From: Syntrophomonadaceae bacterium | GTDB lineage: Bacteria; Bacillota; Syntrophomonadia; Syntrophomonadales; Syntrophomonadaceae | Length of the DNA: 40,164 nucleotides | Direction: 5' to 3' | Assembly (NCBI GenBank): GCA_012511795.1 | Contig: JAAZFJ010000037.1 | Location: 1 to 40,164, forward strand | Shown: piece after piece, positions 16,213 through 23,184 of the stretch | Layout: each line of letters opens with the position of its first letter | Numbering within the stretch: position 1 is the stretch's first letter | Made by a program: the position numbers and the translations under genes | The notes under the pieces: model-generated | The model's database searches: none | What the model was told of the DNA's origin: nothing | What the model saw: the letters and a program-made list of their open reading frames with translations, nothing else

Positions 16213-16240
16213 TTGCATTCTGTTTTTTTCGTGATAAAAT
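16213..16240 (+). promoter_or_regulatory. Promoter of the Phe T-box leader
   Basis: An extended -10 element, TGATAAAAT (16232-16240), is preceded at 16 bases by a weak -35, TTGCAT (16213-16218). Transcription would start near 16247, just before the first T-box stem I bases at about 16262. Confidence 0.5.
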
Positions 16241-16499
16241 AATTAAACATTAATATTCAAATGCGATGAAGAAGTAAAGTAAATTTGTGGAATTATACAG
16301 AGAATAGATGTCATCGGCTGTAAGCATCTAGATAAGGAAGCAAATTGAAGTTCACTTCGGAGTACCTGGCTGAAACATATGCAAGTAGGCCAAGGCGGAA
16401 GCTTCTACCGTTAAAAGGAAGGGGATATCGGATTATTTTCCTGTATCTTTAAGCAAGCGGGTCTTATGACAAAATGGGTGGTACCGCGGGTAGTATATA

Positions 16500-16530
16500 C
16501 TTCTCGTCCCAATGGGATGAGAAGTTTTTT
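16500..16530 (+). terminator. T-box terminator 1
   Basis: An 11-bp stem, CTTCTCGTCCC / GGGATGAGAAG (16500-16510 with 16514-16524, one G-T pair), has a 3-base loop and is followed by six T's. The CGTCCC side overlaps the sequence that would form the antiterminator with the first T-box. Confidence 0.9.
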
Positions 16531-16607
16531 GTTTAAAGAGGAGTTTTCCTGTATCTTTAATGAGTCGGGCTTTTGCCAACCAGGGTGGTATCGCGGGATG
16601 TTTTGAA

Positions 16608-16646
16608 CCTCTCGTCCCTATAAGGGACGGGAGGTTTTTGTTTTTT
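16608..16646 (+). terminator. T-box terminator 2
   Basis: An 11-bp stem, CCTCTCGTCCC / GGGACGGGAGG (16608-16618 with 16624-16634), has a 5-base loop followed by TTTTTGTTTTTT. It is homologous to terminator 1 and lies 29 bases before the aroF start. Confidence 0.9.
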
Positions 16647-16674
16647 GCATCATAAATAGAAGGAGGAGGAAAAA

Positions 16675-17514
16675 ATGAATAGTTTGGCTGAGAAAATAAA
16701 TAAAATGCTGGTAGCAAAAGACAGTCAGGATAGTTTAACCCAGGTAAATGTTAAAGGTTGTGTCATTGGCGGAGAGCAAATTGTTGTTATAGCCGGGCCT
16801 TGTGCTATTGAAAGTGAGGATTGGCTGAAAGAGACAGCTTTTAAGGTAAGAGGAGCAGGAGCAGCCATGTTAAGAGGCGGAGCTTTCAAACCTCGAACTT
16901 CTCCTTACAGTTTCCAGGGACTTGGGGAAGAAGGCTTGATAACTCTGGCCAAAATAGGCGAAGCTATGAATATGCCGGTTATTACAGAGGTAATGGATAG
17001 TGAAGACATACCTGTTGTCAGTGAGTATTCTGATATCCTGCAGGTGGGCGCCCGTAATATGCATAACTTCTCTCTTTTAAAGAAACTGGGGCAGATCGAT
17101 AAACCAGTTTTGCTGAAAAGGGGCATGGCAGCAACTGTTGAGGAATGGTTGTTAGCTGCCGAATATATATTAGCCGGCGGTAACAACCAGGTAGTATTAT
17201 GTGAAAGAGGAACACGCAGTGCTGAAAAGTGGACGCGCAATACCCTTGACTTGTCGGCAGCAGCTTTAGCAAAAGAGCTTACTCATCTACCGGTAATCGT
17301 TGATCCAAGTCATGGTACAGGAGTAAGAAGCCTGGTTGCACCCATGGCTAAAGCGGCAATTGCCGCAGGTGCAGACGGATTGATTGTAGAAGTACACCCC
17401 CATCCGGAAAGGGCTTTATCAGATGGAGAACAATCATTGACTCCTCGTCAGTTCAGTATTTTGATGAGAGAAATAGAACCCATTGGCAAAGTGATGGGAA
17501 GGAGGGTCAGATAA
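16675..17514 (+). CDS. aroF: 3-deoxy-7-phosphoheptulonate (DAHP) synthase, short type I-beta
   Basis: This 279-residue enzyme condenses phosphoenolpyruvate and erythrose-4-phosphate, the entry step of aromatic amino acid synthesis. Motifs are AGPCAIES near residue 40, [16 protein letters not shown] near 65, [17 protein letters not shown] and DPSHGTG. Type I-beta enzymes of about 338 residues carry an N-terminal ferredoxin-like regulatory domain. Here only about 35 residues precede the barrel, so feedback inhibition through that domain is not expected and control probably rests on the Phe T-box upstream. ATG 16675 follows AAGGAGGAGG. The stop overlaps the pheA start by one base. Confidence 0.95.
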
Positions 17515-18335
17515 TGACCTATGCCGTATTGGGGCCGATAGGCACCTTTAGTGAAGAAGCAGTCAGGATCTATAGCCAATCGAACTCACATATATGGGTG
17601 ACGGAAAACATATCGGATCTATTTGAACTGGTTGAAAAAGGTCAGGTCAGTGATGGACTGGTTCCCCTTGAGAATTCTGCCACGGGGATCATTTCCATCA
17701 CCATGGAATGTTTGGCTGCTAGTACGTTAAAAATAAAAGGAACAATTGAAATACCGATAAAACAGTATTTGCTGGCTAATGGCAATTATAAACCTAAAGA
17801 AATCCAACTGCTGATCAGTCAAAAGGTGGCTCTGGAACAGTGCCGCAGATATATCAATAAAAATCTTAAAGGAGTTCGAACTGAAATAACCGAAAGTACT
17901 GCCCGAGCTGCTCAACTGGTCCGGGAGGAAACTCGCAGAGCAGCAGCCATCGGCAGTAGACGTTTGGCCAGGCTTTATGGACTGAAAATCATAGAAGCTG
18001 CTGTTCAGGATGGAATCAATTATACCCGGTTTATTCATATAGCAGCCAATAGCTCAGATGCAGTTAAAGGAAATAACAGCAGCTTGATCCTCTCTTTGCC
18101 GCATAAAGTAGGGGCTTTGTATAATCTGCTGGAAGTTTTTACCCGGTTCAAGTTAAATTTGCAAAAAATTGAATCGTTTCCTGCAGAGAGTCCAGGAAAT
18201 TATATATTCTATATAGAAGTTGAAAAAGAAGAAGAAGACATCAATATGGAACTGCTGCTGCATGAATTAAGGCCCTATAGTAATTGGGTGAAATACCTGG
18301 GCTCATATACGCAAAGGAGAATTATCGAGTGTTGA
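17514..18335 (+). CDS. pheA: Prephenate dehydratase with C-terminal ACT domain
   Basis: This 273-residue enzyme converts prephenate to phenylpyruvate, the committed step to phenylalanine. The N-terminal catalytic domain shows GPIGTFSEEA and VPLENSATG near residue 45, and the catalytic Thr-Arg-Phe triplet occurs in INYTRFIHIA. The ACT domain (about 192-265) has GALYNLLEVF and KIESFPAES; the latter is a variant of the ESRP Phe-binding motif, so end-product inhibition is likely. ATG 17514 overlaps the aroF stop by one base with GGAGGG upstream. Together with aroF and a UUC-specifier T-box it forms a phenylalanine-responsive unit. Confidence 0.95.
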   Translation: MTYAVLGPIGTFSEEAVRIYSQSNSHIWVTENISDLFELVEKGQVSDGLVPLENSATGIISITMECLAASTLKIKGTIEIPIKQYLLANGNYKPKEIQLLISQKVALEQCRRYINKNLKGVRTEITESTARAAQLVREETRRAAAIGSRRLARLYGLKIIEAAVQDGINYTRFIHIAANSSDAVKGNNSSLILSLPHKVGALYNLLEVFTRFKLNLQKIESFPAESPGNYIFYIEVEKEEEDINMELLLHELRPYSNWVKYLGSYTQRRIIEC

Positions 18336-22979: not shown

Positions 22980-23184
22980 ACAAATAAGAATATTAAAACA
23001 GCTGATATCCCTGCTGTGTTCGTGTATTACCGTTAAGTTTTTGCCAACACAAAAACAAAGGGAGCCTGGTCTCTGTATGTACGCTCGTATGCCTTTTATT
23101 TAAAGGACACCGCAATCATACAGGAGGGCACCCACCTGCTGAGCAGGTTAAAACTGCGGTGTTTCACGACTCGGTGGGGTTTTT
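22980..23184 (+). ncRNA. ssrS: 6S RNA
   Basis: This roughly 205-base RNA lies between aspS and tcdA, the site of a 6S RNA gene in Bacillus. It mimics an open promoter and sequesters vegetative RNA polymerase. The closing stem pairs 23009-23024 (CCCTGCTGTGTTCGTG) with 23165-23179 (CACGACTCGGTGGGG), and a T-run at 23180-23184 ends the transcript. The central-bubble 5' side is 23025 to about 23065. Its 3' side contains a perfect hairpin, ACCTGC-TGA-GCAGGT (23134-23148). The upper arm pairs CTCTGTATG (about 23073-23081) with CATACAGGAG (23117-23126) and ends in CCTTT/AAAGG. The mature 5' end may be processed downstream of 22980. No ORF of note occurs. Confidence 0.85.
23165..23184 (+). terminator. 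3' end of 6S RNA acting as terminator
   Basis: The GGTGGGG side of the 6S closing stem is followed by TTTTTCTTTT. Whether termination uses the long closing stem or the 23107-23162 hairpin is unclear, but the U-run right after a GC-rich strand marks the transcript end. Confidence 0.55.

Follow-up and report, generated by a model that had tools for sequence, protein, structure and literature searches.

T-box leaders with duplicated terminator–antiterminator elements were reportedly described by Vitreschak et al. in 2008. Partially tandem T-boxes, which combine one Stem I with two antiterminator/terminator modules, are recognized in a 2020 review, with an unknown mode of action (PMC7583486). Fully tandem T-boxes, in which every unit has its own Stem I and specifier, include those of the trp operon and thrS (PMC12452182). 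For the yxjA purine riboswitch, cotranscriptional strand exchange in the expression platform is the switching step (PMC9756952). Here we analyzed the leader of the aroF-pheA genes in a 40,164-nucleotide stretch of DNA from a Syntrophomonadaceae bacterium (assembly GCA_012511795.1, contig JAAZFJ010000037.1, forward strand), called the window below, to which all coordinates refer. The leader is a partially tandem class I Phe T-box, in which a single 5’ strand in the linker covaries with the 3’ strands that precede both modules.

Like other partially tandem T-boxes, the aroF leader places one Stem I half before two modules, upstream of amino-acid biosynthesis or transport genes; it differs in having a single 5’ strand upstream whose complement, a 3’ strand, recurs in front of each module. 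Fully tandem T-boxes likewise place at least two serial terminators under the control of one tRNA, but the aroF leader has one reader only. In the same genome, pheS has a class I Phe T-box (L001) with an identical UUC specifier, the same tRNA and a transcriptional terminator, but this T-box possesses a single module and lacks the linker helix. Strand exchange during transcription, proposed here as the switching step, would resemble that of the yxjA riboswitch, except that in the aroF leader the exchange would shift the sensor between platforms. The original prediction, made from the letters alone, called the half-copy form much less explored than tandem T-boxes, which is true of its mode of action (PMC7583486); the form itself is a described class, represented by more than 100 loci in the census below. 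The partially tandem class is therefore already known and the shared strand is the new part. Its novelty rests on our having found no description of it in the literature searched, which excluded Vitreschak et al. 2008 and Gutierrez-Preciado 2009.

The whole architecture spans 16257-16645, between a gene for an MBL-fold protein and aroF-pheA, and all its features lie on the forward strand. The Rfam T-box model RF00230 matches 16257-16514 from end to end (model positions 1-219) with a score of 110.6 bits (E = 8.7e-24), above the gathering score of 93, identifying a class I transcriptional T-box. Alignment to the model places a single copy of Stem I at 16263-16365, with the specifier codon UUC at 16351-16353, followed by Stem II at 16365-16394. 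The specifier matches the host tRNA-Phe, which has the anticodon GAA and ends in A73-CCA. The Stem IIA/B pseudoknot (16395-16421) pairs 16395-16398 with 16408-16411 and 16402-16406 with 16417-16421, as supported by covariation among 30 aligned leaders, in which helix IIB is 100% paired and has both sides changed in four of its five pairs. Module 1 comprises Stem III (16461-16470, GUC uuau GAC) and antiterminator 1 (16475-16511, bulge UGGUACC with UGGU at 16479-16482), both placed by the Rfam alignment and the aligned leaders, and terminator 1 with its U-run (16499-16534; hairpin 16499-16525, −18.0 kcal/mol).

The second module (16515-16622) matches only the 3’ half of RF00230, at model positions 109-219 with 25.9 bits (E = 2e-4), truncated at its 5’ end. 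This match and the aligned leaders place its Stem III at 16568-16577 (GGC uuuu GCC) and antiterminator 2 at 16582-16619 (bulge UGGUAUC, UGGU at 16586-16589), and terminator 2 with its U-run follows at 16605-16646 (hairpin 16605-16637, −25.1 kcal/mol). The GUC/GAC and GGC/GCC stems of the two modules differ by compensatory changes. A second Stem I was considered and rejected, since the approximately 57 nt between terminator 1 and the second T-box core leave no room for one and the model finds none; a fully tandem T-box was likewise rejected, as no Stem I with specifier precedes module 2. The covariance model thus confirms the original prediction of one UUC-reading Stem I followed by two antiterminator/terminator modules in series.

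We retrieved 30 aroF loci from 30 family genomes. Of these, 27 show two modules with the expected spacing, and two further loci carry both modules with an insertion of approximately 90-120 nt separating terminator 1 from module 2. The thirtieth ends at a contig end with module 2 visible, so that the comparison with homologous leaders found both modules in 29 of the 30. Judged from this comparison, the two-module aroF leader is ancestral in the family. In the wider class, 29 of 63 genomes match a strict form of the pattern; the leader of a same-genus genome (L132) is identical to that of Syntrophomonas sp. UBA1368 (L054) over the stretch compared. A pattern scan across 84,980 bacterial species gave at least 119 matching stretches, and 130 distinct good leaders were obtained in all; ten matches were left out by hand as chance or false, having the first core inside Stem I or coming from a GC-rich genome without a T-box. 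The genes behind the census leaders include aroF, serC, serA, trpE, lysA, amino-acid permeases and symporters, among others. Partially tandem T-boxes are common. Within the window’s own genome, only the aroF leader was seen doubled among 11 T-boxes. As a separate observation, four leaders from Paenibacillus, Lysinibacillus and Priestia (L019, L089, L105 and L109) carry at least three closely similar terminator modules behind one Stem I, and these mostly precede NSS-type transporters.

Both modules fit the same tRNA. The UGGU of each bulge fits the host tRNA-Phe because its discriminator end is A73-CCA. Across the 130 census leaders, the variable base of UGGN is the same in both modules in 89% of cases, compared with 46% in shuffles, implying that both modules read the same tRNA end, and U-runs stand behind both modules in 124. 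Within each module, the antiterminator overlaps the terminator and the two are mutually exclusive; an alignment of 30 aroF leaders shows that these helices are conserved in modules 1 and 2 alike and include some compensatory changes. Terminator 2 is the stronger of the two in 35 of 44 aroF leaders. Both modules look functional in these alignments. An alternative in which module 2 is a decaying duplicate or an ordinary back-up terminator with no sensing role draws on its Stem III, which pairs in only 61% of cells in the MAFFT alignment and varies in loop length, and on the change of the bulge from UGGUACC to UGGUAUC. We regard it as very unlikely: across the 30 leaders the core pairs of antiterminator 2 are retained at 90-100% and pairing in terminator 2 stands at 93.5%, none of the complete aroF loci retrieved from the family lacks either module, and the UGGN base agrees between modules.

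The original prediction also raised the possibility of two tRNA binding events. In the version considered here, a second uncharged tRNA would bind antiterminator 2 alone, with the first remaining attached to Stem I and antiterminator 1. Module 2 does have the complete UGGU bulge that this would use. However, the 57-nt stretch separating the modules holds neither another Stem I nor another specifier, so the second binding would not be specific for Phe, and the UGGN base of module 2 follows that of module 1. An isolated antiterminator binds free tRNA weakly. Two binding events are thus very unlikely; given the lone Stem I and two bulges that match one and the same discriminator base, a single tethered tRNA used twice fits better. 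The related suggestion that two terminators in series sharpen the response is reasonable. Independently of these questions, 34 of the 130 partially tandem leaders have a UGGNAAC bulge in module 1 and UGGNACC in module 2 (for example L016, L083 and L091), with the reverse seen in one; this one-sided asymmetry is possibly lineage-specific.

An exact 17-base repeat, TTTTCCTGTATCTTTAA, precedes the two modules at 16436-16452 and 16544-16560, a spacing of 108 rather than the 107 first given. Copy 1 supplies the 3’ strand (x3-1, 16439-16447) of a hairpin located directly 3’ of the IIA/B pseudoknot and just upstream of module 1. Its 5’ strand, x5 (GAUAUCGGA, 16424-16432), is the only 5’ strand of this linker helix X. 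Copy 2, containing x3-2 (16547-16555), recurs before module 2 without a 5’ partner of its own and can pair with the same x5; the two partners of x5 sit at similar distances from their respective T-box cores. The original prediction took the repeat as the mark of a duplication, and the repeat itself is present in both places. As a chance match or a recent duplication scar it was rejected, because its conservation is selective: across 40 leaders, identity between the two copies is 79% for x3, compared with 34% for Stem III and 39% for the antiterminator loop. The x3 strand appears, from this pattern, to be kept for pairing with the single upstream strand x5.

This pairing was examined by comparison of leaders. 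Helix X1 (x5 with x3-1) is formed in 82% of alignment cells, and x5 covaries with both x3 copies, GAUAUC occurring with GUAUC and GGUAUC with GUACC. The terminal A-U pair of helix X is formed in 27 of 30 leaders for copy 2 and in 11 of 30 for copy 1. When x5 was paired with x3 strands from other leaders, the leader’s own strand performed better for x3-1 and for x3-2, none of 3000 swaps being as good in either case. Pairing of x3-2 extends into the loop of hairpin 1 by 1.85 bp, compared with 0.98 bp in swaps (p = 0.0004), and this signal persisted after removal of redundant leaders (p = 0.001-0.01). In leader L160, the distal helix X2 reaches 12 pairs, with AAAAUA/UAUUUU changed on both sides. 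The same design is seen in Lactobacillaceae permease leaders with a hairpin of unrelated sequence, for example GGAGUUUAGUGAU, whose full complement AUCACUAAACUCC stands before module 2; in a Lactiplantibacillus leader the distal helix is 13 bp long. Duplexes within these leaders average −20.0 kcal/mol and swapped ones −11.4 kcal/mol, with none of 500 swaps as good, and 12 of 14 leaders were significant individually.

A linker hairpin is also present, as a single copy between IIA/B and Stem III, in L066, L070, L073, L083, L092, L107 and L122 (mostly trpE). It shares the U-G and C-Y mismatches of the aroF hairpin (motif GRUAUC / YGUAYC), lies outside the Rfam consensus, and is possibly an undescribed T-box element.

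Partition-function folding from x5 to successive 3’ ends, which gives equilibrium predictions for the RNA alone, without tRNA or polymerase, is consistent with a switch between the two copies. Mean pairing of x5 is 0.82 with the local strand and turns to 0.84 with the distal one once x3-2 and the start of the second Stem III appear; in the window’s own leader it goes from 0.89 local to 0.89 distal. The predicted move of x5 from x3-1 to the module 2 side occurs in 39 of 40 aroF-like and 8 of 8 Lactobacillaceae leaders, and depends on the 3’ end folded.

We propose, giving it an even chance of being right, that the reader of this partially tandem Phe T-box is re-docked by strand exchange, so that uncharged tRNA-Phe is checked at two terminators. 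The reader half (Stem I, Stem II and IIA/B) would control two successive expression platforms. In this pathway, uncharged tRNA-Phe on Stem I would stabilize antiterminator 1, and RNA polymerase would pass terminator 1. Newly transcribed x3-2 would then displace x3-1 from x5. This would disconnect module 1, whose terminator hairpin would fold harmlessly behind the polymerase, and would dock module 2 as far from the reader as module 1 had been. Finally, antiterminator 2 would have to be stabilized by the 3’ end of uncharged tRNA-Phe, either the same molecule or one that has re-bound, before the polymerase could pass the stronger terminator 2. Because two successive passes would be needed, expression of aroF-pheA would require tRNA-Phe to be uncharged on two consecutive occasions, and the predicted outcome is a lower leak and a steeper and later response than with the pheS T-box in this genome, which has one module.

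Several points weigh against strand exchange. When the second T-box core was added to the fold, the prediction became mixed, since two T-box cores can pair together, and in the window’s leader the exchange partly reversed. Because x3-1 and x3-2 have the same sequence in that leader, pairing of x5 with copy 2 adds no base pairs over copy 1, and exchange would be driven less strongly there than in most relatives. When RNAduplex was run broadly over all leaders with shuffled controls, the signal was weak and noisy (mean z = −0.65). Register-fixed and swap tests took its place, and the swap tests overstate independence because the leader sequences are related. All of the support is computational, coming from sequence comparison and folding. 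Tests for a shared strand in the serA, serC, trpE and NSS-transporter groups of partially tandem leaders gave no support, and the SSS-transporter leaders L035 and L027, similar by eye, did not stand out in the same test. A shared strand is therefore not required for the architecture in general and is, on present comparisons, a variant among partially tandem T-boxes rather than the rule.

In a rival account, the terminators act in series without any handover: module 2 would be a back-up terminator/antiterminator unit that meets the tethered tRNA by proximity, and x3-2 would be kept for local structure. The serA, serC, trpE and NSS groups keep both modules although a shared strand is unsupported there, the two x3 copies of the window’s leader are equally strong, and local partners for x3-2 are available in some relatives, such as L041 and L120. 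The covariation of x5 with x3-2, the extension of this pairing into the hairpin loop, and the Lactobacillaceae swap test argue against it, as do the two family loci with approximately 90-120 nt insertions, in both of which x3-2 remains beside module 2. We consider serial action without handover possible, if rather unlikely. For strand exchange, the unrelated Lactobacillaceae hairpins suggest a wider statement, which we hold tentatively and with somewhat less than even confidence: a single sensor handed between platforms by strand exchange, with one tRNA checked twice in a form of kinetic proofreading, may have evolved at least twice, in Syntrophomonadia with their relatives and in Lactobacillaceae.

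The surroundings of the leader are as follows. A putative extended −10 promoter element, TGATAAAAT, was read from the sequence at 16232-16240; a consensus promoter scan returned nothing at this site. Downstream, a ribosome-binding site (AGGAGGAGGA, 16661-16670) precedes aroF (16675-17514), encoding 3-deoxy-D-arabino-heptulosonate 7-phosphate (DAHP) synthase and matching NCBIfam PRK08673 (429.5 bits) and TIGR01361 (389.7 bits) over cut-off. It is followed by pheA (17514-18335), encoding prephenate dehydratase, which scores 218.6 bits against PRK11898, just under the cut-off of 219. Elsewhere in the window, a 6S RNA was found at 23005-23184 (RF00013, 86.4 bits).

A different T-box arrangement was encountered at leuS, where the Stem III loop of the T-box contains a complete tRNA-Ala(GGC) gene with CCA, immediately upstream of the antiterminator (G000:C111:3173-3454; L008, tRNA at 1655-1730; also L190-L213). 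ARAGORN identified tRNA-Ala(GGC) in 23 of 24 loci, and T-box matches span the tRNA in seven of nine loci tested. Of the 63 genomes of the class, 44 have a tRNA T-arm with a T-box core following within 45 nt; in a sample of 399 drawn across the phylum, 41 do. The scan of host tRNAs gave no second GGC copy besides this tRNA-Ala, and processing of it would cut the leuS leader. No report of the arrangement was found in the literature searched.

For partially tandem T-boxes, a strand that covaries with two partners, one per module, offers a concrete and cheaply testable answer to the question of how they act. If the proposed exchange is true, it would offer a portable way to build genetic switches with low leak and a steep response, and would mean that proofreading can be carried out by a protein-free RNA switch. 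The one-module pheS and two-module aroF switches, which respond to the same tRNA in one genome, are a natural control for it.
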